Assembly (NCBI RefSeq): GCF_000170755.1
Contig: NZ_ABCK01000009.1
Location: 124,001 to 188,000, forward strand
Length of the DNA stretch: 64,000 bases
From: Lentisphaera araneosa HTCC2155
GTDB taxonomy: Bacteria; Verrucomicrobiota; Lentisphaeria; Lentisphaerales; Lentisphaeraceae
Direction: 5' to 3'
How positions within the stretch are numbered: position 1 is the stretch's first letter; the number at the start of each line of letters is the position of its first letter. Of this stretch, positions 1,754 through 59,407 are shown in pieces. Below the pieces are notes generated by a model that made no database searches, was not told the DNA's origin, and saw nothing but the letters and a program-made list of their open reading frames with translations. A program made the translations under genes and the position numbers.

Positions 1754-3463
1754 ATGAACGCAGCAGAAGCAGTAATTAAATGTTTGGAAAAGCATGGCGT
1801 AGAGTACATTTTCGGCTACTCTGGCGGTGCAGCGATTCCATTCTTTGATGCTCTGGTCACCACAAAGACAGAAATCGAACTTATCCTTGTGCGTCATGAA
1901 CAGGGTGCGACTCATATGGCCGATGGCTACGCTAGAGCAACAGGGAAACCAGGTGTCGTTTTAGTAACGAGTGGTCCAGGTGCGACCAACACGATTACAG
2001 GATTGATAACAGCTCAGATGGACTCAGTGCCGATGATTGTTATTACAGGTCAAACAATCAGCCCTATGTTAGGTAAAGATGCCTTCCAAGAGGCGGATGT
2101 ATTTGGTATTTCTCTTCCAGTGGTCAAGCACAGCTACTTGGTGCGTTCACACGAAGATATGACTCGTATTGTTAATGAAGCGTTTTACGTAGCGACAAGC
2201 GGACGTCCAGGTCCAGTTATTATAGATGTCCCAAAAGATATTAGTTCAACTGAAGGTGTATTTGATTTAGATGCGGCTATGGATTTACCAGGCTACACAG
2301 TGCCAGGCCATGGAGATGTTGACAAAATTAAAGACATCGCAAAAGCATTTAAGAAAGCCCGTAAGCCTGTGATAATGGTAGGTCATGGATGTATTTTATC
2401 AGATGCTGAAGAAGAACTTAAGCTTCTTGCTGAAAAACTTAATGTCCCAGTAGTTAGTACCCTATTAGGCAAAGGTGCTATATCTGAGAAGCATGACTTA
2501 GCTCTCGGTATGCTCGGTATGCATGGTACAGCTTATGCGAACTTCGCAATTAAAAATTGTGACTTAGTTTGTTCTATTGGTTCTCGTTGGGATGACCGTA
2601 TTGTTGGCAAGCTCGATGAGTTTTGTGCCGATGCAGTAAGAATTCACATTGATATTGACCCTTCTGAATATGGTAAAATGATTACACCCGATCATTGGTG
2701 TGTTGGCGATGCTCGTTTAATTCTCGAGGAACTACTTCTTCATGTGGAAGAATGTGATACGGAAGCTTGGGTCAAGCAAGTTAAAGAGTGGCGCAATGAT
2801 TACCCTTTGAAATTTGATACTATTGAAGGTGGTTTAACCATGCAGGAAGTTCTTGCTGAGTTAGACAAGCAGAGCGATAGTGAAGCCATTATTTCGACAG
2901 ATGTTGGTCAGCACCAAATGTGGGCAGCGCAATTTTGTAAATCTACGAAAGGAAAAAACTGGTTGAGTTCTGGTGGAGCTGGTACAATGGGCTTCGGTTT
3001 TCCTGCAGCTATTGGTGCGCAGTTTGGTCGCCCAGGTGACCTCGTTGTTTCTGTTTCAGGCGATGGCGGTTTTCAGATGACTCTTTTTGAGTTGTCGACA
3101 GCAGCCATTCACAAGCTGCCAATTAAAATTTTAGTCCTCAACAATAGTTACCTCGGTATGGTTCGTCAGTGGCAAGAGCTTTTCTTTGATGAGCGTTTGT
3201 CAGGCGTTGATATGGAAGGCAACCCTGATTTTGTGAAATTAGCTGAATCCTACGGTGTAAAAGCTTTCCGTATGTCAAGTAGTGATGATGTGGCAAAGGT
3301 CTGGGAAGAAGCTTTGGCATATAATGATGGGCCATGCTTGATCGAAGCAGTTTGTAACAAAACTGATAATGTTTACCCCATGATCCCTGCTGGCGCTAAC
3401 TACGATAAGATGTTGCTTGAAGCTCCTGAAACGAAGTTAGAAAAGCCAACTGGTTCAACCTAA
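1754..3463 (+). CDS. ilvB: Acetolactate synthase large (catalytic) subunit
   Basis: ThDP- and FAD-dependent enzyme making acetolactate or acetohydroxybutyrate, the first common step to valine, leucine and isoleucine. At 569 residues it is normal length. The catalytic glutamate E49 sits in VRHEQGATHMADGYARATG. The central FAD-binding region lies around residues 190-330. The ThDP-Mg motif begins at SGDGGFQMT and ends near LNNSYLGMVRQWQ. The regulatory subunit ilvN follows within a few bases, so the two subunits are translated together. Confidence 0.95.
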   Translation: MNAAEAVIKCLEKHGVEYIFGYSGGAAIPFFDALVTTKTEIELILVRHEQGATHMADGYARATGKPGVVLVTSGPGATNTITGLITAQMDSVPMIVITGQTISPMLGKDAFQEADVFGISLPVVKHSYLVRSHEDMTRIVNEAFYVATSGRPGPVIIDVPKDISSTEGVFDLDAAMDLPGYTVPGHGDVDKIKDIAKAFKKARKPVIMVGHGCILSDAEEELKLLAEKLNVPVVSTLLGKGAISEKHDLALGMLGMHGTAYANFAIKNCDLVCSIGSRWDDRIVGKLDEFCADAVRIHIDIDPSEYGKMITPDHWCVGDARLILEELLLHVEECDTEAWVKQVKEWRNDYPLKFDTIEGGLTMQEVLAELDKQSDSEAIISTDVGQHQMWAAQFCKSTKGKNWLSSGGAGTMGFGFPAAIGAQFGRPGDLVVSVSGDGGFQMTLFELSTAAIHKLPIKILVLNNSYLGMVRQWQELFFDERLSGVDMEGNPDFVKLAESYGVKAFRMSSSDDVAKVWEEALAYNDGPCLIEAVCNKTDNVYPMIPAGANYDKMLLEAPETKLEKPTGST

Positions 3464-3470
3464 GGATTTG

Positions 3471-3971
3471 ATGATGAAAGAATTTCAAAATCATACAATA
3501 AGTGTTTATATTCGCAATAACCCAGGTGCTTTAATGCGCATGTGTCAGATTTTCTCACGCCGTGGTTACAATATTGATTCTCTCGTTGTTTCACCTGCAA
3601 TGGATGGTCGCTTTTCACGTGTTTCGATTTCTGCGAAAGGGGCAAGCGATAGTTTAAAACAAATTAATTTACAGCTCGAAAAACTCGTCGATGTCGTTCA
3701 CTGTATTGAACACAAAGATACAGAGGCAATTGTTCGCGAAATGGTCTTAGTAAAAGTTGCGGCAAACGCAGTAAACCGTGGTGAAATCCTGCAAATTACT
3801 AAGCACTTTGGTGGAAAAACAGTCGACTTTACAGACAACTCTCTGGTTATTGAGTGTTCAGGTGCATCAACTAAGCTTGATGCAATGATTGCCCTTTTAT
3901 CTAATTACGAAATTGTCGAAATGGTCCGCAGTGGACAGATGTTAATGGCTCGCGGAGAAAAGCCCACATAG
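3471..3971 (+). CDS. ilvN: Acetolactate synthase small (regulatory) subunit
   Basis: Regulatory partner of IlvB; it binds valine and stimulates the catalytic subunit. The protein has an N-terminal ACT domain (ISVYIRNNPGALMRMCQIFSRRGYNIDSLVV) and a C-terminal IlvN domain (EIVEMVRSGQMLMARG). Two adjacent ATG codons at 3471 and 3474 both follow AAGGA at 3462-3466; the second has the better spacing, so the start is uncertain by one codon. It follows ilvB directly and belongs to the same operon. Confidence 0.93.
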   Translation: MMKEFQNHTISVYIRNNPGALMRMCQIFSRRGYNIDSLVVSPAMDGRFSRVSISAKGASDSLKQINLQLEKLVDVVHCIEHKDTEAIVREMVLVKVAANAVNRGEILQITKHFGGKTVDFTDNSLVIECSGASTKLDAMIALLSNYEIVEMVRSGQMLMARGEKPT

Positions 3972-10569: not shown

Positions 10570-10740
10570 AACTCCTAATTTGCTTGACTAATATAATGAA
10601 TACTTAAAGACTAGCTAAGCAATTCTATTTTATTTCTTAAATGTAGATACAGAAAAATAACTATTTCTAGAGTTTTTCGCATGTTGCGTATGGAGCCCTT
10701 ATTTACTGATTTCTCACCGTTCGAAAGAAACCTTTATATA

Positions 10741-11997
10741 TTAAAGGTAAGAGGGCAGTACTTCGTTGGCGAGGATTTGCTCCATTTCTTCACGCTTCCT
10801 AATAATGTGTGCTTGATCATCTTTATCTAAGATGAGTTCTGCAACTTGAGGGAAGGAGTTATAGTTTTTCAAAGACATTGAAGCGCAGTAAGCTCCTGCA
10901 CCTTCGATAATGATTGTATCGCCAATATTAGTTTTTGGCAATGAACGTGGTTCCAGAGTATCGTCAGCAGAAACAGAGAAAAGGTCGCCGCTTTCACAGC
11001 AATGACCCGTGATCACGTACTCAACTTTTTCTGAACTGTCACTTAAGGGTAAGCAAGGGTGGTGAGCTGCGTAGAGGGCAGGGCGTGTGAGCATGTCCAT
11101 GCCCGCGTTGATTTTGAGGAAAGTGTAACCTTCATCACCCGTGTTCGTGATGTCGTCGACAGAGCAAACAAGTGAGCCCGCATTAGCAACGAGAAAGGTT
11201 CCTGGTTCCAGTTCAAGGTGATACTTGCGTCCAGTTTCTTCGGCTTCTTTCTTGAGGACATCAGCAACAGTTTGCCCAACAGCTTCAATAGAAGTGGATA
11301 CTTCGTCTGAGTGGCGAGCGACTTTGAAGCCTCCGCCAAGGTTAAGTACTGTGACTTCAGGGAGTTGGCGAGCGACAGCAAGAGTGAGGCTAGCGGCGCG
11401 TTCCCAAACAGCGGGATCGGCACCAGAGCCAATATGTGAATGGAGACGAGTGATGCGAAGTCCGCAACCGTCTGCAAATCGCTTGACTTCATCGACTTGT
11501 TCGAACCAAATGCCGAAAGAAGAGGAGGGGCCACCAACATTTGTTTTACGGCTAGATCCAGAACCTAATCCGGGGTTAATGCGTATAGAGATTTCACTTC
11601 CCTTTGGAGCTTTGGCTGCATAGCGTTTAAGCTGTTCCAGTGAGCAGGCGTTAAAGCGAACGCCCTCTTTAATAATGAGCTCCAAGTGTTCTGAACTCAT
11701 TTCCTGTGAGGTGAGTTGGATTTTGTCAGCAGCTATACCAGCTTTTAAGCAGCGTATAACTTCATATTCACTTGAGGCGTCAAAGTGGAAGCCCGTATTC
11801 TCAATTACTTTTAATATAGCGGTATTCGGATTGGCTTTGATGGCGTAGCGAGCCGTTAGACCGAAGGGTGCGGGAATCGCCAAAATTGCCTGGCATTGCT
11901 TTTCAATCACTTTTTGTGAGTAAACGTAAAAGGGGGTACGGTGCTGTTCGTTGAGCTTAGAAATGATTTCTTTATTAAGGAAAGTAAAATTTTGCAT
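10741..11997 (-). CDS. lysA: Diaminopimelate decarboxylase-like PLP enzyme
   Basis: Fold-type III decarboxylase expected to convert meso-diaminopimelate to lysine. The 418 residues match LysA. The PLP lysine is K54 in YAIKANPN; the HSHIGSG motif, the glycine loop LNLGGGF and the C-terminal HCCESGD motif (catalytic cysteine) are present. The phosphate-binding motif reads EPGTFLVANAG rather than the usual EPGR. A related decarboxylase (carboxynorspermidine or ornithine type) cannot be excluded, but the CESGD form favours LysA. The gene stands alone; the ATG is close to the divergent ribosomal operon promoter region. Confidence 0.85.
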   Translation of the reverse strand: MQNFTFLNKEIISKLNEQHRTPFYVYSQKVIEKQCQAILAIPAPFGLTARYAIKANPNTAILKVIENTGFHFDASSEYEVIRCLKAGIAADKIQLTSQEMSSEHLELIIKEGVRFNACSLEQLKRYAAKAPKGSEISIRINPGLGSGSSRKTNVGGPSSSFGIWFEQVDEVKRFADGCGLRITRLHSHIGSGADPAVWERAASLTLAVARQLPEVTVLNLGGGFKVARHSDEVSTSIEAVGQTVADVLKKEAEETGRKYHLELEPGTFLVANAGSLVCSVDDITNTGDEGYTFLKINAGMDMLTRPALYAAHHPCLPLSDSSEKVEYVITGHCCESGDLFSVSADDTLEPRSLPKTNIGDTIIIEGAGAYCASMSLKNYNSFPQVAELILDKDDQAHIIRKREEMEQILANEVLPSYL

Positions 11998-12148
11998 AAA
12001 AAATATTTTGAATGGCTTGTTTAATTAATTTGTTCGCCTAATGTTGCACCCATTCCATTCCCCGCAAGATCTAGACATAGATAAAGCCATGATAAATGTC
12101 TTTAGAGTTAAGAAAAAAAGAGTATCTAACTTTTTTCCTAAGCTTGTT

Positions 12149-12176
12149 TTGACAAGTGCATAGCTTCGGCTATTAT
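12149..12176 (+). promoter_or_regulatory. Near-consensus sigma-70 promoter of the alpha ribosomal operon
   Basis: TTGACA (12149-12154) and TATTAT (12171-12176) are separated by 16 bases. The predicted transcription start near 12184 leaves an ~80-base leader before rpmJ. The boxes are seen directly; activity is inferred. Confidence 0.75.
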
Positions 12177-12263
12177 ATGCGCTCATTATTTAGGTTTTAT
12201 GTATATTAATTTAGGACTTGTGTAAACAAATCCAACACAGAGTAAAATTTTTAGGATTTTAAA

Positions 12264-12380
12264 ATGAAAGTTAGAGCTTCAGTTAAAAAAATGTGTGAGC
12301 ATTGCCGCGTTATCAAGCGTGAGGGTATTGTCAGAGTGATCTGCAGCAAGAACCCTAGACACAAACAGAGACAAGGGTAA
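12264..12380 (+). CDS. rpmJ: 50S ribosomal protein L36
   Basis: A 38-residue L36 that starts [14 protein letters not shown] and ends NPRHKQRQG. It keeps the zinc-ribbon residues C11, C14, C27 and H32 (zinc-binding form). It is the first gene of the operon, followed by rpsM after five bases, the usual bacterial order. AGGA precedes the ATG (TTAGGATTTTAAAATG). It is easily missed because of its size. Confidence 0.96.
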
Positions 12381-12385
12381 TTATT

Positions 12386-12778
12386 ATGCCAAGAATTATG
12401 GGTGTCGACATACCGACAAACAAAAAAATTAAGATCTCTCTTACGTATATCTACGGGATTGGTTCAGCGACCGCTCTTGAGATTTTAGAAAAAGCAAAAA
12501 TTGATCCCGATAAGCGTGCATCAGAACTTAATGATGCTGATATTTCGGCAATCGTTAAATTATTAGATTCTTCTTACGAAGTTGAAGGTGACCTCAGAAG
12601 ACAATTAGCTCTTTCTGTACGTCGTCTCCAAGCGGTTAATTGCTACCGTGGTCGTCGTCACAAACACAGTCTTCCTTGTCGTGGTCAAAGAACCAAGACA
12701 AATGCTCGTACCAGAAAAGGTAAGAAGAAGACTATCGGTGCGGTACGTGACAAATCAGCACGTAACCAGATGAAATAA
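12386..12778 (+). CDS. rpsM: 30S ribosomal protein S13
   Basis: S13 of the small-subunit head (130 aa). It starts MPRIMGVDIPTNKKI, has the helix-hairpin-helix region ISLTYIYGIGSATALEIL, and a basic C-terminal tail RGQRTKTNARTRKGKKKT. Order rpmJ-rpsM-rpsK-rpsD-rpoA-rplQ is the standard alpha operon. It is slightly longer than E. coli S13. Confidence 0.97.
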   Translation: MPRIMGVDIPTNKKIKISLTYIYGIGSATALEILEKAKIDPDKRASELNDADISAIVKLLDSSYEVEGDLRRQLALSVRRLQAVNCYRGRRHKHSLPCRGQRTKTNARTRKGKKKTIGAVRDKSARNQMK

Positions 12779-12799
12779 TCTCCTTTAGGAAAATATATT

Positions 12800-13234
12800 A
12801 TGGCAGATTTTTTAGAAGATGACCCGAATGCAATTCAGCTTAAGCAGGTCACAAGAAAGAAGGGTGCAAAAGGTCGCACTCCAGTAAACGTAACAAACGG
12901 CATTGTGCACGTTGTTGCAACATTCAACAATACTAAAGTATCAGTTTCTGACGTACACGGCAATGTTCTTGCTTGGTCATCAGCTGGTAAAATGGGTTTC
13001 AAAGGTTCTAGAAAGAGCACAGCTTATGCTGCTCAACTAGTTGCTACAGAAGCTGCTAAGCGTGCAATGACTTATGGCATGCGCGAAGTTGAAGTTAGAG
13101 TTAAAGGTCCTGGTGCTGGTCGTGAATCAGCTGTTCGTGGCGTAAGCGCTGCAGGTCTTGACATTAGTTTAATCAAAGACGTTACACCCATCCCTCACAA
13201 TGGTTGTCGTCCACCTAAGAGAAGAAGGGTTTAA
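12800..13234 (+). CDS. rpsK: 30S ribosomal protein S11
   Basis: S11 of the small-subunit platform (144 aa). Recognised by [18 protein letters not shown], the [11 protein letters not shown] region and the C-terminal [11 protein letters not shown]. The N-terminal ~20 residues are an acidic and then basic extension. AGGA lies at about 12787-12790, 9 bases before the ATG. Confidence 0.97.
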
Positions 13235-48734: not shown

Positions 48735-48962
48735 ATGATTACAAAAAATCAGCTTGTGAGTCTGGATTACTTCATCAAAGATGAAGCGGGTCAGGTTTTA
48801 GAGAGTTCTGCTGAAGGCTTATTAACGTATTTACATGGCTATGGCTCCCTACCGAGCCCCTTAGAGCAAGCGCTCGAAGGGAAAGATCAAGGGGCAAATG
48901 CCTGTTTAGATGTTCCTGTATTCAATGTTATGGTGAACACGATGCGAGTTTATTTATTGGGA
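48735..48962 (+). pseudogene. Broken slyD-type FKBP copy
   Basis: The first 58 residues are closely related to the intact SlyD-like gene at 49770 (shared SLDYFIKDE, SSAEGLLTYLHGYG, LEGKDQG). At about residue 60 a one-base deletion shifts the frame: read in the next frame the DNA gives QCYGEHDASLFIG, matching QCFGERNEELF of the intact copy. The similarity ends at about 48960, where the 3' end of the convergent lipoprotein gene begins. The reading frame after the shift is meaningless (93 codons total). Only the N-terminal half of the PPIase is present, so it is not expected to work. Confidence 0.8.
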
Positions 48963-49414
48963 ATAATTTTTTGGACTTCTTTTAAGGATATAATTCTATC
49001 GATTTCTTTTTTGTAATCACCATCTTTTATTTCATTTGGCATTTGAGATATAGAAATTTTTGAATTTTCAGTCGTGATTATAAAAATTCTTCCTGTATTA
49101 AAGTCGTAGTTATTCCCATTGATATTCATACTTTTTGATGATGCAGAATATTCAATTGATGGACCTTCAAGAGGTTTGATGTACCCTTTCCATGCAGACC
49201 CATCGTGCCCTTTCCATTCAGTCCCACCAGAACTTATAGTTCCAATTGAGCTAATATCACTACATATTATAAAACCCAAAGTTTTGTCTGATTTGATTCC
49301 GAAGGTAATAACTTTAGAATTTATACTTCTACTTCCGCCTCCAATTTGCTCGCTACAGCTAATCAGACTTATCAATAAGCTGACTACTAAGATGAAATTT
49401 ACCGGTTTTATCAT
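48950..49414 (-). CDS. Hypothetical lipoprotein overlapping the broken slyD
   Basis: A 154-residue protein with a lipoprotein signal peptide and lipobox LISC (MIKPVNFILVVSLLISLISC). The mature part is a small beta-rich domain (VITFGIKSDKTLGFIICSD, GGTEWKGHDGSAWKGY). The ATG at 49414 is chosen because AGGA lies ten bases upstream; a start five codons earlier at 49429 has no ribosome-binding site. Its 3' end overlaps the remnant slyD. Family not recognised. Confidence 0.6.
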   Translation of the reverse strand: MIKPVNFILVVSLLISLISCSEQIGGGSRSINSKVITFGIKSDKTLGFIICSDISSIGTISSGGTEWKGHDGSAWKGYIKPLEGPSIEYSASSKSMNINGNNYDFNTGRIFIITTENSKISISQMPNEIKDGDYKKEIDRIISLKEVQKIIPNK

Positions 49415-49539
49415 TTGTTGGGTCCTCATGTTCTTATTAACATAAGTAAGCAAACTCCTTTTGAACTTCGTCGTTACAAACCTTAATGATTTTGATGCAG
49501 TAAAATTTGGCAGGTGTTGAATAAAAGGTATTCGCAGCT

Positions 49540-49557
49540 AAGGAGTCGGGACTCCTT
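49540..49557. repeat. Perfect palindrome AAGGAGTC-GG-GACTCCTT
   Basis: An 8-bp perfect inverted repeat around GG, nested in a larger imperfect one (AGCTAAGGA at 49537 and TCCTAGCT at about 49587). It lies in the 355-base gap between the lipoprotein and slyD that holds no credible gene. It has the look of a REP-like element; there is no T run, so it is not an obvious terminator. Confidence 0.5.
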
Positions 49558-49769
49558 GCAGGGAGAGTTTGAGGAGGAGCGGCGTCCTAGCTCATATATA
49601 GATTTATCGAAGAGATCTCTATTCCTCTCGAACACCCCTAGAAAGAACTTGCTAGTCCTTTACCATGTGAAGCTTATTGATGAAAACAGAGTTTCCCTTA
49701 TAATATTTTCTTTACTCATGGAAAAATTAAATAATTTGGTTAGCGTGGGGAAAAATTAAGGAATTGATT

Positions 49770-50339: not shown

Positions 50340-51298
50340 TTTGAATTGATGGTTTAGCATTAAGCTTGAGTCGGAAGTCTAGGGACGCTGTCCCTGTCCC
50401 TGCGAGGGTGGCTACCCATCGACGAGCAGAAGGGCAATGATGAATTACTTACAAGAATGAGTTTTTACTGCAGTGAGCCTGCGAACGATCTGCAGCGAAT
50501 GAAATGAGCGATCGGCTAACTTTTTCAAGTCTGTCCCCATGCCTGCGAGGGTGGCTACCCATCGACGAGCAGAAGGGTAAGGTTAATTTTGAATGGTGAA
50601 TTGTAAATTTTGAATTGTTTTAACTCTGCGTCACAGCGCCTCTGCGTGATGAGATTAAATCTGTAAGTAAAGTCGATTTGAAAATAGCTACAACACGTGA
50701 ACAAAAACTTAGTGTCTTGGCGTCTTCGCGAGAGGATTCTATAGCTTGCTCTCATTTGTAAATTAACTCACGCAGAGTCGCGGAGGCGCAGAGAGGTGTC
50801 AAGGGCAATGATGAATTACTTACAAGAATGATTTTTTACTGCAGTGAGCCTGCGAACGATCTGCAGGCGAAGCCGATCTGCCAACTTTTATGATTTTAAC
50901 CACTGAAAAGTACAGAAAAACACAGAAAGGTTTGTGAGGATTTGCGGGCTTCAAAATGATTTTTTGCTAAGGAATTAAGAGCAATTATAAATTTTGAAAC
51001 TCTACGTCTCCACGACTCTGCGTGATGAGATTAAATCTGTAAGTAAAGCCGACCTATCAACAACTATAATAAGTGAACAAAAAACTTCGTGCCTTGGCGT
51101 CTTAGCGAGAGACCTCTAAGACTTATTCCTATCTGTCAATAAAAGAGTGTTTGAGTTAAATTAACTCACGCAGAGGCGCGAAGGCGCAGAGAGCAATAGA
51201 TGATTGAAAAATGGATTAGTGGAGTCGGCGCTTGGAGTTTAACCATGGAAATTTTCCATCCTATTTTGAAGTCCTATAAAACCAAGGTTAAAATTTTA
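50340..51298. repeat. Repeat-rich intergenic region (four repeat types)
   Basis: No gene is credible here. Type A (GGGACGCTGTCC...GCTACCCATCGACGAGC): 50381-50433 and 50530-50579. Type B, ~180-195 bases whose ends are inverted copies of CTCTGCGTGATGAG / CTCACGCAGAG and could fold into a long hairpin: 50619-50800 and 50995-51192. Type C (ACTGCAGTGAGCCTGCGAACG): 50467-50514 and 50838-50880. Type D (AAAAGTACAGAAAAACACAG): about 50895-50950. Copies recur at 54.8-55.5, 57.4 and 59.4 kb. Confidence 0.8.
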
Positions 51299-52714
51299 CT
51301 ATTTAATAGATTCAAATAGTTGTTTAGCCGTTTCGTTTGCTTTTGTAGAAAAATCAGAAGTGTTAAAATCCTTTTTGTCAGCAAGGAGAATAAGGTGAAC
51401 ACCTGGGCTTTTTCTAAAACCTAGCGTTTGCCACAAATAATCATTATGGTTTGAAACGAGTTTGTCTTTAATGATAAAAAATTCTGTAAACCAGCGTTCG
51501 CCATCGGTTTTTACTGATTTTAATTCCGTGCCTTTTAAATAGATGCCGCGATATTGTAGGCAGACCTCAAGAGCGTGGTGCCTATTATTACCTTGTGGAT
51601 CATACCATAATAATCCAAGTTTTGGGGATTGATCATTAAGTCTCAGTTGGTAGCCCATGCCCTGAATCACCTTTTTTTTGATTGTGCTTGGTGGTTTTAA
51701 ATGCTTAGAATCTAAACTAAATAGGGTTGAGGAAATAAATGGAAGAAAAAGAACTGTAGCGATACAGGATGTTAGTACACCATTTAGCCTTGAGTTTGTT
51801 GGTTCAGTTGATCGTTTAGGCGGTATGTTAGTAACTTTATGCCACTTTAATACAGTGAATATGAAAATTGTAATGGCCCATATATCCGCATAGGGGATTA
51901 GTACAAATAGTGGGCATGATGCGCTTAGACATAAAAAGCCTGGGATACTTAATAACCATTTCGAATTGACTGTGAGGGGACAGACTAATAACCAAGGTAG
52001 CCACAAAGATTCAATTCCAGACCAGCTTATTGCGATAGCAATACTTACCCATAAACCAAGAGCTCTGAAATTAAAAACTTCACTATGATCTTTGTAATTG
52101 CTATTTAAAAGTAAGAACAATACACCAATGGCAGTGACCCAATGATTACTTAAATTGAGTAATGGAGCAATGAGTCCAATAACTGCTGAAATATGTAAAA
52201 GTTCAAAACACAGTGATTTTTTTGAGCGTTTTGTATCCCTTGGAATAGCATACAGGGCAAATGGTATTAACCAAAATAACCCCCAAAAATAATGCATCTG
52301 TGGGGTCTCGACTTCAGGATACAGGAAATAGCGATAAGCAACTAAGGTTAAGATTCTTAAGACATTAGATAAAATGGCTAAGGGTATCATGCATAGCATT
52401 TTCAGCCAGTAACTGGAATTCTGTGGGCTATGGCGATTCATCCAAGCATATATAGCTAAAAGAACTAGTAAGATGTTCATGCCAGCACAATCTCGAGTCC
52501 AAGGAATGCTTAAGTGAGCAACGTTGAAGTTAACTCCTTGATCACTGACTGCTAAGCCCGTTAGGCTTATTATAAATAAGGCAATAGGTTTGCAAATACT
52601 GCCATATATATCTACGACAATATCCGATGACGAGAGTGTAGAAAAAATTAAGAGGGGTAATAGACCCTTCCATAAAGGATGAGTGTCATTTGGCTTATTC
52701 TCAGTATCGGTCAT
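51299..52714 (-). CDS. Exosortase fused to an EpsI-like domain
   Basis: A 471-residue membrane protein with several helices. The transpeptidase triad of exosortases is visible: C76 in TRDCAGMNILL, R120 in LSNVLRILTL and H141 in MHYFWGLFWLIPF. Exosortases cleave C-terminal sorting signals of exported proteins and attach them to the surface. The C-terminal ~160 residues resemble EpsI/DUF3485 (GLLWYDPQGNNRHHALEVCLQY: a His followed by a conserved Cys). The gene is ten bases after the first of two adjacent target proteins, so it is a dedicated module. The specific Xrt subfamily is not assigned. Confidence 0.85.
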   Translation of the reverse strand: MTDTENKPNDTHPLWKGLLPLLIFSTLSSSDIVVDIYGSICKPIALFIISLTGLAVSDQGVNFNVAHLSIPWTRDCAGMNILLVLLAIYAWMNRHSPQNSSYWLKMLCMIPLAILSNVLRILTLVAYRYFLYPEVETPQMHYFWGLFWLIPFALYAIPRDTKRSKKSLCFELLHISAVIGLIAPLLNLSNHWVTAIGVLFLLLNSNYKDHSEVFNFRALGLWVSIAIAISWSGIESLWLPWLLVCPLTVNSKWLLSIPGFLCLSASCPLFVLIPYADIWAITIFIFTVLKWHKVTNIPPKRSTEPTNSRLNGVLTSCIATVLFLPFISSTLFSLDSKHLKPPSTIKKKVIQGMGYQLRLNDQSPKLGLLWYDPQGNNRHHALEVCLQYRGIYLKGTELKSVKTDGERWFTEFFIIKDKLVSNHNDYLWQTLGFRKSPGVHLILLADKKDFNTSDFSTKANETAKQLFESIK

Positions 52715-52724
52715 TTTTTTACTT

Positions 52725-53576
52725 TTAAGCTAAAAACTTGGTTTTTATAAATGCAGCTAAGAAGAAAAGTAAAGCGAAAAATGGTGGATTTGGAGCCCCT
52801 GGAGCACTTTCATCAAATGCCCAAGCCCAATCTTCTGACGGAGTATCAACATTTGTTGTTTCTGTGCCAGATACTTCTGCTATTATGGAACCTAATGCTT
52901 CTTGACTATCAGTTTCCGGATTAAAGGTTTCAACACGAGTGGTATAATTGTCTGACTCGAAACCACCCGATCCAGTGGTAGACAGTTTTATTTTATCCCA
53001 AGTAGTTTCAGCATCACCATAGAAATTAATAAATGCATAGGGTTGACCGGAGTTTTCACCTGTTAATGGATTGCCATAATAATCTTGGCCAAGTGCCAAA
53101 CTTCCAAACATTGACGCGGTTGAATATTGAGAAACGATTTGATCATCATTGTAAAATGTAAGTAAGTTGGAAGAATCACCTGCAGACCACCACATTCCAA
53201 AATAGGAACTTGGAGTATCTAAAGTTAAAGTACTATTTTGTATATTATAAGCATTTTTAACATAGGAATAGTTGGAGCCTAAACCAGTGTTTTCATCTAT
53301 GGCACCACCATATTTATTAGCACTACGAACATAGACTTGATCAAATGATCCCACATTGTCCCATGCAAGATTATAGTTGAAGCCAGTTTCTAAATCATTA
53401 AAGTTAAATTCATTGGTGTTTGATAATGAACTTGTAGTAGCAAATGGGTCTTCGGCTATTGTTACTAATGTAGATTGACCATAGGAAACTTGTGAACTTA
53501 AAATCAATAATATTAATGTTTTAGCTAACTTAAACTTTGAAAAGACACTCATAGTTACACATTTTTGTAGTTTCAT
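52725..53576 (-). CDS. Exosortase target protein 1 with PNPP-type C-terminal signal
   Basis: A 283-residue exported protein: signal peptide (ILLILSSQVSYG), then a beta-rich surface domain with YFGMWWSAGD, QDYYGNPLTG, PYAFINFYGDAETTWDKI and GGFESDNYTTR. These resemble exosortase-dependent surface proteins of the Npun_F0296 type. The C-terminus is a sorting signal: acidic stretch EDWAWAFDESAPGAP, motif PNPP, hydrophobic helix FFALLFFLAAFI, basic end KTKFLA. The canonical PEP is replaced by PNPP. The exosortase starts ten bases after its stop. An alternative methionine at residue 9 could be the start. Confidence 0.8.
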   Translation of the reverse strand: MKLQKCVTMSVFSKFKLAKTLILLILSSQVSYGQSTLVTIAEDPFATTSSLSNTNEFNFNDLETGFNYNLAWDNVGSFDQVYVRSANKYGGAIDENTGLGSNYSYVKNAYNIQNSTLTLDTPSSYFGMWWSAGDSSNLLTFYNDDQIVSQYSTASMFGSLALGQDYYGNPLTGENSGQPYAFINFYGDAETTWDKIKLSTTGSGGFESDNYTTRVETFNPETDSQEALGSIIAEVSGTETTNVDTPSEDWAWAFDESAPGAPNPPFFALLFFLAAFIKTKFLA

Positions 53577-53746
53577 TTTGTACTCTTTCTAAGTTAAAAT
53601 TATTATTTTAAAATTTCTTAAATAACATAAACACCATAAAAATTCTTAAAGAAATCATATCCGAAGAAATTGTACTGCTGTATAAGGTTTGGATACTATC
53701 ATTAATGTATTCAATTCAAATGATTTACGAAATAGTTATTTGATGT

Positions 53747-54574
53747 TCATGACGAAAACTTGGTTTTTATAAATGCAGCTAAGAAGAAAAGTAAAGCGAA
53801 AAATGGTGGATTTGGAGCCCCTGGAGCACTTTCATCAAATGCCCAAGCCCAATCTTCGGAAGGAGTATCAACATTTGTTGTTTCTGTGCCTGATACTTCT
53901 GCTATTATATTACCCAATGATTCTTGACTATCAGTTTCCGGATTAAAGGTTTCAACACGAGTGGTATAATTGTCTGACTCGAAGCCGCCTCCACCATTTT
54001 GAGTTAGTTCAATTTTATTCCATGAGGTTTCTGCGTCCCCGAAGAAATTTATAAAGGCGTAGGGTTCACCACCATTACCACCTGTGAGTGGGTTCCCATA
54101 GTAATCTTGACTTAAATTTAAACTCCCAAACATAGATTCAGTTGTATATCTGGCAACGAGCTCATCGTCATTATAAAATGATAACTGATTGTTTTTATCG
54201 CCCGCAGACCACCAGAAACCAAAATATGAACTGTTCTCATTTAGACTTAGAGTACTAACAGGTGTCCAGTTATTCCCCTGCCATGAAAATTGAGATGCCT
54301 GGCCTGTGCTTTCGTCAATGGCGCCTCCCCATACGTTAGAATTTGAAATATAGAGACTATCAAAAGTTCCTACACCATCCCAAGATACATTATTATTGAT
54401 CCCATTTGAGAGCTCATTAAAGGTGTACTCACTTGTGTTTGCAAGTGAACTTGTTGTTGCGCTCGCGTCTTCTGCAATAGTAACCAAAGTAGATTGCGCA
54501 TAGATAGGTAGTGAAAATAATAATATCATTATTAATATTATTGATTTTTTTATAAAACTAGATGAGTTAAACAT
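53747..54574 (-). CDS. Exosortase target protein 2 with PNPP-type C-terminal signal
   Basis: Paralogue of the preceding protein (about 275 residues from this start). AGGA lies 9 bases before this ATG and directly abuts the upstream ATG at 54583, so the third-codon-later start is preferred. The N-terminal domain differs at many positions (for example YFGFWWSAGDKNN, AETSWNKIEL), while the last ~80 residues, including the PNPP signal and KTKFSS end, are almost identical. The last ~100 bases of coding DNA are the same in both genes. Separated from target 1 by about 170 bases. Confidence 0.8.
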   Translation of the reverse strand: MFNSSSFIKKSIILIMILLFSLPIYAQSTLVTIAEDASATTSSLANTSEYTFNELSNGINNNVSWDGVGTFDSLYISNSNVWGGAIDESTGQASQFSWQGNNWTPVSTLSLNENSSYFGFWWSAGDKNNQLSFYNDDELVARYTTESMFGSLNLSQDYYGNPLTGGNGGEPYAFINFFGDAETSWNKIELTQNGGGGFESDNYTTRVETFNPETDSQESLGNIIAEVSGTETTNVDTPSEDWAWAFDESAPGAPNPPFFALLFFLAAFIKTKFSS

Positions 54575-54583
54575 TGAAAACAT

Positions 54584-55339
54584 TCCTATTTAAAATTTGA
54601 GTATTAATAATGAATTTTTTTTGTTAGTTTTGATGTAAGCAAATTTAGGGTTTTAATTTCATTTATAATTTGTAATTAATTGATTTTAAACATCTTAAAA
54701 ATCACCTCATGCTTTTTGAGGTGTTTTTTAGAAACAATTCACACACAATTTACAGGAGAATGTGTGAGTTTATACATACCAAATAATCGTCCTTTTAAAC
54801 TCTGCTTCATAGCACCTCTGTGTGATTGAATTAAATCTCTAAGTAAAGTTGATCTAATAATAGCCCTAAGACCTGAACAAAAACTTCGTGCCTTGGCGTC
54901 TTAACGAGAGAATTCTAAGACTTATTCCTATGTGTAAATTAAATAGTTTTTTAAGTTAACTCACGCAGAGTCGCGTAGGCGCAGAGAGGTATTAAGGACA
55001 ATTTTTAATGGTGAATTCTAAATTTTAAATTGCTTATAAGAAAAATTCTTTCACTGCAGTGAGCCTGCGAACGATCTGCCAACTTTTATGATTTTAACCA
55101 CGGAAAAGCACAGAAAAACACGGAAAGTTTTGTGAGGTTTTTGCGGTGTTCGCAAGTCATTTTCTCGCCAAGGCGCGAAGTCGCCAAGTTTTTTAAGAGA
55201 TAGAAAGAGTTAGGTAGTTCACACTTCAGTGTGTGTGACAGAGATTAACTGATGTTTAATCGACATCTTGGGGAGTCAGAAAAATGGGTTTACCACAGAG
55301 TTTACTGAGGACACAGAAAAATATAATATGTATACTGTT
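54584..55339. repeat. Intergenic region with repeat types B, C and D
   Basis: No gene is credible. Type B occupies about 54798-54995 with the same inverted ends (ACTCTGCTTCATAGC... and ...ACTCACGCAGAG), type C about 55053-55080 and type D about 55092-55146. A copy of the CGCCAAGGCGCGAAGTCGCC motif follows at about 55173-55195. A short imperfect inverted repeat (CACCTCATGC...GAGGTG) near 54705-54722 precedes TTTTTTAG and could end transcription from the left. Confidence 0.75.
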
Positions 55340-55435
55340 GACTTAGCGACTTAGCGACTTAGCGACTTAGCGACTTAGCGACTTAGCGACTTAGCGACTT
55401 AGCGACTTAGCGACTTAGCGACTTAGCGACTTAGC
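55340..55435. repeat. Tandem array of 12 x GACTTAGC
   Basis: Twelve perfect copies of the 8-bp unit GACTTAGC (96 bp), with a further partial copy (GA) at the end. All reading frames contain stop codons, so it is not coding. The unit matches part of the conserved segment of repeat B (GTCTTAGCGAGAG), suggesting expansion from a B-type remnant by slippage. Confidence 0.95.
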
Positions 55436-55470
55436 GAGAATTTTTCTTTTGCTTTGAAATATAAACCTTT

Positions 55471-57518: not shown

Positions 57519-59407
57519 GTGCGCCTGAGAGCGCACACAATCAGTGAGGTGAAAGTCCTCATCAACAAAGGCTGATTATGTTGTAGTCGAACCTAACTGC
57601 GTTGTCGTGAGGCGGGGTGGAGAGCAAGGCAAGGCGAAGCAGCAGTCCGTAGGATGACGAACTCGATTCGGCTTTATAGTACTAGCGAGCCTGCGATCGC
57701 GTGGCGAAGCTTGGAACGGAATGAAAATAATAATAATAAGGAGTAATTCTGAAGATCCTCTATGCTGAATATCAGCGAGTAGCAAAGCAGTAGAGGAAGT
57801 CTATAGAGTGGTTGGAGACGGAATGCGGTGAAGGTTGTGTGACGTTAATCAGGGAGATCTGCATGTGCAGTGCAATAAGGCATGCAGAAGTCAGAGCTCT
57901 CATAGTAGCGAAGAAGGCGGTGAAAGCTGTTAGAGCGAAGGAGAGTAGGAAGATGAAACTGAGAAGAAAAGAATGAAGGAGTGAAACAATTGTCAGAGAT
58001 GACTAAACATACATGGGAGCACTTAGGGCGCACCGAAGAAATTCGTGCGTGGGCCTCGACTTCAGTCTGGACAGATCAGATGCTGGGAACTCTTGAAACA
58101 AGAGTTGAAGGTAAGAAATGGTATAGCTTAATAGATAAAGTAGCGCGAGAAGTAAACCTTATAGAAGCTTGGGAATCTGTTCGTGCAAACGGCGGGAGTC
58201 ACGGGGTGGATATGGTGAGCTTGGATCGTTACGAATCAGAGCTAGAGCACAATACAAAGCAATTGATGAAGCAACTGCAGGCAGGGACTTACCTGCCACA
58301 ATGCGTTCGCAGGGTAGAGATCCCAAAAGCAGATGGTAAAACGCGTGCTTTGGGAATACCGACCGTGCGCGATAGAGTTGTTCAGACTGCGCTCAAGAAT
58401 GTTATTGAACCGATATATGATGTGGATTTTTCTACACAAAGTTTTGGTTTTCGTCCGCAACGTGGATGTAAAGATGCGCTTCGGCGTGTTCATCATCTAC
58501 TTACGCAGGGACAGCTCTACGTCATTGATGCGGATATTCAAAGTTACTTTGATATGATACCGCACGACAAACTCATGGAACGAGTCAAAGAGAAAATAAG
58601 CGATGGCAAGACCCTAGATCTTATAGAAGCTTTCCTCAAAGCAGGAATATTTGATGGGATCAAGGAGTGGGATCCCGAGAAAGGGACTCCGCAAGGAGGC
58701 GTAATTAGCCCACTACTTGCCAATATTTACCTCAATGAATTCGACCACAGGATGACAGCGGCTGGCTTTGAAATCGTAAGGTATGCGGATGACTTTCTGG
58801 TGATGTGTGATAATGCGAAATCGGCTAAGCGGGGCTTGCGCAAAATCAAGCGTTGGATGAAGGCTCATGGTCTGAACCTCCATCCCGATAAAACCCGAAT
58901 TGCCGACATGAATCAGCAGGATGAGTACTTTGAATTTCTAGGTTATCACTTTGAGCGCTCGAAAAGAACGGGCAGGATAAATAGGTGGCCAAGAAAACAG
59001 AGTATGGCTAAAATGAAAGACACTGTGCGAAAGCATACGAGGCGTTGTAACTGGCAATCGGTAGAAGAAATCATTAAAGGTCTCAGGCCTAGTCTCAAAG
59101 GTTGGTATGAGTACTTCAAACACTCAAATCGTTGGGCTATGCTCGAAGTTGATGCTTTCTTTCGTCGAAGGTTACGAAGTATTATCGCTAAGTACAATCG
59201 TAAGAAAGGTTCACATCGCTTTATAGATAACAGGAAATATACCAAGAAATACTTTGCAGAGCTAGGGTTCTTTTCACTGGAAGAGGCTTGGCTATTGGAA
59301 TCTCAGTCTCTTCGGAGTAAGCATTGACCGGAGAGCCGTATGCGGGAGATCCGCACGTACGGTTCGGAAGGAGGGGAGGCTCCGCAAGGAGCTTTCCCTA
59401 CCCTTAT
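57519..59407 (+). mobile_element. Group II intron with encoded maturase
   Basis: The 5' end is GTGCGCC (57519) and the likely 3' end is CCCTTAT (59407), ~1.89 kb. Domain V is the 34-base hairpin at 59333-59366 (GAGCCGTATGCGG...CGTACGGTTCG) with the AGC catalytic triad. Domain VI follows at about 59369-59398 (GGGGAGGCTCC, GCAA loop, GGAGC). Domains I-III occupy 57519-57980. The joined exons would read TGCCTGCGGTC + CCAGC. The boundaries are inferred from motifs, not from an empty-site comparison. Confidence 0.88.
57981..59327 (+). CDS. ltrA: Group II intron reverse transcriptase/maturase
   Basis: A 448-residue protein with a GTG start and GGAG seven bases upstream. Reverse-transcriptase motifs are GIPTVRDRVVQTAL, DADIQSYFDMIPHD, GTPQGGVISPLLANIYL and RYADDFLVM (YADD catalytic). 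A maturase/thumb region follows, ending in a YFAELGFFSLEEAWL block. There is no C-terminal HNH endonuclease. The stop is five bases before domain V, the usual layout of a compact group II intron. It mobilises and splices its own intron. Confidence 0.95.
   Translation: MKQLSEMTKHTWEHLGRTEEIRAWASTSVWTDQMLGTLETRVEGKKWYSLIDKVAREVNLIEAWESVRANGGSHGVDMVSLDRYESELEHNTKQLMKQLQAGTYLPQCVRRVEIPKADGKTRALGIPTVRDRVVQTALKNVIEPIYDVDFSTQSFGFRPQRGCKDALRRVHHLLTQGQLYVIDADIQSYFDMIPHDKLMERVKEKISDGKTLDLIEAFLKAGIFDGIKEWDPEKGTPQGGVISPLLANIYLNEFDHRMTAAGFEIVRYADDFLVMCDNAKSAKRGLRKIKRWMKAHGLNLHPDKTRIADMNQQDEYFEFLGYHFERSKRTGRINRWPRKQSMAKMKDTVRKHTRRCNWQSVEEIIKGLRPSLKGWYEYFKHSNRWAMLEVDAFFRRRLRSIIAKYNRKKGSHRFIDNRKYTKKYFAELGFFSLEEAWLLESQSLRSKH

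Follow-up and report, generated by a model that had tools for sequence, protein, structure and literature searches.

A putative exosortase Z/PGAP-CTERM sorting module with adjacent and dispersed targets in Lentisphaera araneosa

We analyzed a 64,000-nucleotide stretch of the Lentisphaera araneosa HTCC2155 genome (positions 124,001 to 188,000 of contig NZ_ABCK01000009.1, here contig 9; the genome comprises 6.02 Mb in 81 contigs), referred to below as the window. Three minus-strand genes of the window, coding for an exosortase Z (XrtZ; 51299..52714, 471 residues) and two proposed target proteins, T_C9b (52725..53576, 283 residues) and T_C9a (53747..54583, 278 residues), appear to form an exosortase Z/PGAP-CTERM sorting module, in which XrtZ would process both adjacent targets as well as four dispersed proteins bearing the same tail. 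Judging from sequence, we put the probability of this reading at about 0.8. The gene assignment itself is far above chance (E = 1.9e-188 for the exosortase Z profile NF050190 and about 1e-45 for the Npun_F0296 domain of the targets). The module is a good representative of an enzyme-target family that is catalogued, its enzyme, tail and ectodomain having already been named in NCBIfam, but little described.

XrtZ matches NF050190 over nearly its full length (residues 15-470; 626.6 bits, cut-off 475) and also exceeds the cut-off of the exosortase/archaeosortase family profile TIGR04178 (38.1 bits, cut-off 23). An earlier note, made from this DNA alone, had proposed an exosortase with a Cys-Arg-His triad (C76, R120, H141). 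These residues indeed lie in the contexts CxG (C76, G78), NxxR (N117, R120) and HxxxG (H141, G145), and all three motifs are invariant in 24 of 24 aligned XrtZ rows. The same three motifs are reported for EpsH in the relevant passages of PMC1569441. The likeness to the classical EpsH (XrtA)/PEP-CTERM system extends to the motif-helix-basic architecture of the tail, as described in the same passages. The two systems differ in that the XrtZ score against the XrtA profile (30.9 bits) is far under the cut-off of 208 and that no protein of the L. araneosa genome exceeds the cut-off of the ordinary PEP-CTERM profile (PF07589, cut-off 20.7). Ordinary PEP-CTERM was thus rejected as the identity of the tail; neither target has any Pfam match.

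According to the structural model (predicted local distance difference test score, pLDDT, 85.2), the exosortase core is helical and is followed by a soluble alpha/beta domain (residues ~336-471). Some EpsH proteins have a fused EpsI region, for which the consulted part of PMC1569441 gives the function as unknown. When XrtZ residues ~305-471 were compared with six EpsI-type sequences, hhalign gave a probability of 12% (E 0.0024), or 0.3% with four of them, aligning HH....C of XrtZ to HxPExC of the EpsI type. The 15 families listed for the 24 XrtZ rows at E <= 0.01 do not include the EpsI-type family TIGR02914. A relationship of the C-terminal domain to EpsI is therefore suggestive only. The model of this domain also gave weak structural matches to PsbP-like proteins (Z 5.5, 4.0 Å over 108 residues), which may reflect merely a common arrangement. 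XrtZ has no sequence relative in the PDB at E <= 1, no Foldseek match at E <= 0.001 and no match in a PADLOC scan. A promoter scan remained at the level of shuffled sequences (16 against 15.5 expected).

The two target genes code for paralogues (identical at 190 of 276 aligned residues), and the T_C9b stop codon is separated from the xrtZ ATG by ten bases (52715-52724), just as the earlier note had it. Both proteins share one architecture: a hydrophobic N-terminus, an ectodomain of the Npun_F0296 type (NF050191, cut-off 29; 153.8 bits for T_C9b and 154.9 for T_C9a) and a tail consisting of APGAPNPP, a hydrophobic helix and K-x-K. The paralogous secreted-type proteins with sorting-signal-like ends noticed earlier are thus borne out, the tails being of the PGAP type and differing only in the last two residues. 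Against the PGAP-CTERM profile (NF050189, cut-off 25), T_C9a scores 28.3 bits with hmmscan and T_C9b 24.2, just under the cut-off; in the genome-wide search both are over it (T_C9a 32.3 bits, T_C9b 28.6). In a set of 16 Npun-type targets (two of them the window's own and one, L063, truncated) the tail motif reads P-x-A-P-x-P-P, followed by the hydrophobic helix, and each of the 16 has an NF050191 as well as an NF050189 match (E <= 0.01). The PNPP/KTKF signature, by which further targets were to be sought, holds up as the local variant of P-[GA]-A-P-x-P-P, but its asparagine and the KTKF vary among relatives.

The T_C9a ectodomain is modeled as a beta jelly roll, with a C-terminal helix at residues 260-275. 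Foldseek relates it to CBM6cm-2 and to a carbohydrate-binding module (CBM) of pectate lyase with probabilities of 0.93-0.97, and comparison with carbohydrate-binding jelly rolls gives Z up to 7.9 (3.3 Å over 125 residues). The model thus weakly points to carbohydrate-binding modules as the most similar folds. Both local targets and a dispersed protein, T_C2a, share their ectodomain with the Npun_F0296 surface protein family (NF050191). They differ from the Nostoc members in the tail, which is of the PGAP type here; the Nostoc proteins are assigned to PEP-CTERM and their exosortase is cyanoexosortase B, according to the pertinent sections of PMC12188702.

That enzyme and target belong together is supported by their distribution in other bacteria. 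Among 387 genomes of the phylum, to which the profile cut-offs of NF050190 and NF050189 were applied, XrtZ and PGAP-CTERM exceed them in the identical five genomes. Each of the four other XrtZ genomes has exactly one over-cut-off PGAP-CTERM protein, coded directly upstream of xrtZ. In a sixth genome (G319) the PGAP-CTERM match is under the cut-off, while G190 codes for a second XrtZ-like protein (308.7 bits, under the cut-off), which has an upstream protein of its own with a tail of the APAAPAPS type. A scan of genome contigs with a single-protein query found no locus, and an alignment-based scan found 34 xrtZ loci. Gene order was counted in the 28 near-complete loci, leaving out six with partial matches (L071, L073-L077). 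In 22 of the 28 the immediate upstream neighbor of xrtZ is an open reading frame (ORF) with a PGAP/PAAP-type tail, and in five more such a target is found one ORF further upstream (L064, L065, L067, L068 and L069; the tails of L067, SPPGSPEP, and of L069, in a broken frame, were assigned by eye). Only L066 has no tail protein upstream. These 28 loci are not fully independent, as they include the close pairs L047/L048, L056/L072 and L062/L063. Among the partial loci, the tail is directly upstream in L073 and separated by one ORF in L074 and L076; the tail search gave no match in L071, L075 and L077. Ten further proteins were compared with the PGAP-CTERM profile: five are over the cut-off (L053, L055, L047, L065, L068), two are under it (L064, L074), and L067, the second L060 protein and L038 give no match. 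Taken together, gene order and co-occurrence support the view that XrtZ and its target form a conserved unit; the earlier note had described the enzyme and both targets as one minus-strand unit.

In a second XrtZ clade (L064, L065, L067, L068, L074 and L076) an extra gene lies between the target and xrtZ. Its product, of ~330-350 residues where the start is clear, ends like W..EL.RR.P...V..W and is a candidate partner protein.

The unit is not exclusive within L. araneosa. Six genome sites code for PGAP-CTERM proteins over the cut-off, namely the two in the window and four dispersed on three other contigs (T_C2a and T_C2b among C2:284642 and C2:228278, and the T_C1/T_C13 pair at C1:259034 and C13:115346), so the local pair accounts for only part of the target set. 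The suggestion of a dedicated enzyme with two private targets accordingly fails in its own genome; what remains of it is the single target in each of the four other XrtZ genomes. The six proteins represent three unrelated ectodomain families (three of the Npun_F0296 type, T_C2b, and the T_C1/T_C13 pair) that have only the tail in common, and T_C1 and T_C13 align to the other PGAP-CTERM proteins of the genome over the tail only. T_C2a is probably decayed, as a stop codon interrupts its frame within the signal-peptide region, and it adjoins a transposase-like ORF. T_C2b is a credible XrtZ substrate, since it shares 54-55% identity over 241 residues with the proteins encoded immediately before xrtZ in L053 and L055. 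One might still argue that XrtZ cuts only the two adjacent proteins, the dispersed ones either escaping processing or depending on other exosortases. The one-target genomes, with the target beside xrtZ, would fit this, as would the position of T_C2b immediately after a protein whose tail is of the type associated with another exosortase, that of contig C4. We nevertheless consider it quite unlikely: all four dispersed tails are over the cut-off, three of them scoring above both local tails in the genome search, T_C2b homologues adjoin xrtZ elsewhere, and the other exosortases adjoin tails of different types.

There are four exosortase genes in the genome (PF09721). The three besides xrtZ, on contigs C7, C4 and C6, each adjoin one or more proteins with other tails (VPEPETW, VPEPEE/VPEAQE and VPAGAPEPE, respectively), and none exceeds a named-subfamily cut-off in NCBIfam. 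The call for a search for further exosortases has thus turned up three, each beside a different tail, and no second exosortase for the two window targets. The presence of four such genes invites the reading that one of the other three processes the targets and XrtZ is a non-functional remnant. This is very improbable, since XrtZ is intact with all motifs present, and over-cut-off PGAP tails occur in the 387-genome sample only where XrtZ does.

Several further observations concern these exosortases. Those of C4 (L025:5749-7398, 549 residues) and C6 (L026:5446-7119, 557 residues) have EpsI-type C-terminal regions and possibly represent unnamed subfamilies, each with neighboring targets of its own tail type. 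On either side of the C4 operon lies one copy of a directly duplicated 2,325-base segment (L025:1384-3708 and 10621-12945), the copies being 97.5% identical. The C7 exosortase is XrtQ-like (149.3 bits, cut-off 270), and its gene overlaps the end of that for an 865-residue protein with a VPEPETW-type tail (L024:6818-10188). At L021:4613-6356 a C4-type-tail target directly precedes a PGAP-CTERM protein, placing targets of two exosortases next to each other.

Some points weigh against an XrtZ module with adjacent and dispersed targets. By hmmscan the T_C9b tail scores 24.2 bits, just under the PGAP-CTERM cut-off, and the basic cluster of both local tails is small (two lysines). The fold matches of the ectodomain have weak E-values (best 8.6e-3, none <= 0.001) and come from a model with a pLDDT of only 71.8. 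Cross-processing by the three additional exosortases is possible, and the tail of the C6 target resembles PGAP.

The proposed mechanism is as follows. A signal peptide would export both targets, and the C-terminal helix would anchor them in the inner membrane. At the periplasmic face XrtZ would recognize P-[GA]-A-P-x-P-P, cut near this segment by means of Cys76 with Arg120 and His141, and hand the ectodomain to an acceptor. The jelly-roll, carbohydrate-binding-module-like domain would end on or outside the outer membrane. The four dispersed proteins with the same tail would presumably be served in the same way. Families, active-site motifs, tail and operon conservation, co-occurrence, lateral descent and mosaic targets are read from sequence; cleavage, the position of the cut, the acceptor, surface display and carbohydrate binding are what we infer. 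Alternatively, the cut ectodomains might be released into exopolymer or the medium rather than kept on the cell. The Nostoc punctiforme exoproteome held exosortase-dependent proteins including Npun_F0296, the namesake of the ectodomain, and upon deletion of cyanoexosortase B the exoproteome levels of a co-expressed five-gene PEP-CTERM set that includes Npun_F0296 fell, with low statistical confidence (both from the relevant sections of PMC12188702). In addition, G190 has a glycosyltransferase-like ORF and a probable polysaccharide export ORF near xrtZ (assigned by eye). The module in the window does not lie among polysaccharide genes, and we regard release as a tenable possibility, though one we would not favor.

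The history of the module appears to include lateral movement. In the XrtZ tree (outgroup L064, L065, L066 and L068) the three Lentisphaera enzymes group with that of Rubritalea marina (100/100) among Verrucomicrobiota rows. A constraint keeping the 21 non-Lentisphaera rows together and apart from Lentisphaera was rejected (log-likelihood 106 lower, p-AU 2.2e-5), with the caveats that the Lentisphaera rows are unusual in letter composition and that the tested group was chosen after a first tree. A second tree was built without the long branches L038_G190b, L067 and L069; L070, with its broken frame, is absent from both. The surroundings differ as well. In L. marina IMCC 11369, whose xrtZ is 70% identical, counterparts of the window's sulfatase (46734), FKBP (49764) and ORF 43119 lie together at C2:1.63 Mb with the module absent, and xrtZ with one target is found on another contig, beside ATP-synthase genes (assigned by eye); a piece of the 48132-48557 gene closely precedes this target. 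Lateral movement is supported because of this nesting in the tree and the different surroundings.

The note had suggested that the system is mobile. Lateral spread agrees with this, and so do the joint occurrence of the FKBP and sulfatase flanking genes without the module in L. marina and the long direct repeats on both sides: a copy of a composite dispersed repeat at 54789..55190 on the right and, in direct orientation, copies at 50618-50972 (72% identical) and 50993-51193 (79%) on the left (span 50618..51193). However, a self-mobile element bounded by these repeats is unsupported because no recombinase, integrase or transposase ORF lies between them and because at 72-79% identity they are not fresh. 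The repeat is built of units present throughout the genome; among the 40 of 138 candidates scored no long copy was found elsewhere, the only long matches being to the left of the module. A group II intron maturase gene (57981-59327), with about 92% identical copies in both congeners, is separate from the module. A self-mobile element is unlikely, and we read the module as laterally spreading and shifting in position rather than as an established mobile element. Between the module and a gamma-glutamyltransferase gene lies a tandem array of the 8-base unit GACTTAGC (55332-55443). Elsewhere in the window, 48869-49663, which includes an FKBP fragment and ORF 48950-49453, is 90-92% identical in DNA to C1:1610689-1611649 of G194, compared with roughly 61-69% for xrtZ and the sulfatase gene, and was probably exchanged recently.

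Third codon positions show that the target genes are mosaic. Between the window and G194, xrtZ has a third-position identity of 40.8% (0.32-0.52 in 50-codon windows). For T_C9a and the G194 target the identity rises to 0.88 at residues 128-177 (0 of 5000 shuffles), and for T_C9b a raised window of 0.74 occurs at residues 210-259 (10 of 5000). The two local targets are identical at 46-48% of third positions in alignment columns 36-205 and at 86-93% from column 205 on (94% for T_C9b residues 231-280), with clustering not reached in any of 5000 shuffles. Their longest exact match is a 103-base run across the sorting signal (52733..52835, minus strand, in T_C9b; 53755-53857 in T_C9a). The remaining seven of the ten target pairs compared, which include every pair with L. 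marina or R. marina, lack such clustering: the observed value is equaled or exceeded in 1847 to 3755 of 5000 shuffles. The simplest reading is recombination between species combined with local gene conversion of the sorting-signal ends; the identity may also be due to selection on the DNA itself. More speculatively, and on balance rather doubtfully, the targets could work as a cassette: the carbohydrate-binding-like ectodomain would be swapped between species by recombination, and gene conversion would keep the local sorting-signal ends identical so that the resident XrtZ always recognizes them. Here unrelated ectodomains would also have acquired the signal, so that an enzyme with one target came to have several.

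The L. araneosa module agrees with the NCBIfam description (NF050190/NF050189) in that the enzyme is over the cut-off, the tail motif is matched and the target lies directly upstream, as in most relatives. It differs in having six PGAP-CTERM proteins, compared with one in the four other XrtZ genomes, and two local copies with homogenized tails. The consecutive genes for an enzyme and its sole target in those genomes resemble the dedicated rhombosortase/GlyGly-CTERM systems of PMC3237569, which reserves the term dedicated, in the passages concerned, for an enzyme that has a single target, and notes that such pairs tend to adjoin. According to the same passages, multi-target rhombosortase genomes lose adjacency, named exceptions apart, whereas L. 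araneosa keeps it despite several targets.

In the literature searched we found no use of the names exosortase Z and PGAP-CTERM, the string XrtZ appearing only in an unrelated plant paper; Npun_F0296 is named in one paper. For this reason the comparative facts may be useful, namely the strict co-occurrence, the order of target and enzyme, the additional gene of the second clade, and lateral movement between Verrucomicrobiota and Lentisphaera. Having a single detected target apiece, the four other XrtZ genomes offer uncomplicated settings for testing exosortase cleavage and for identifying the acceptor. Mosaic targets, in turn, would allow a direct test of whether surface ectodomains are exchanged while the sorting signal stays fixed.

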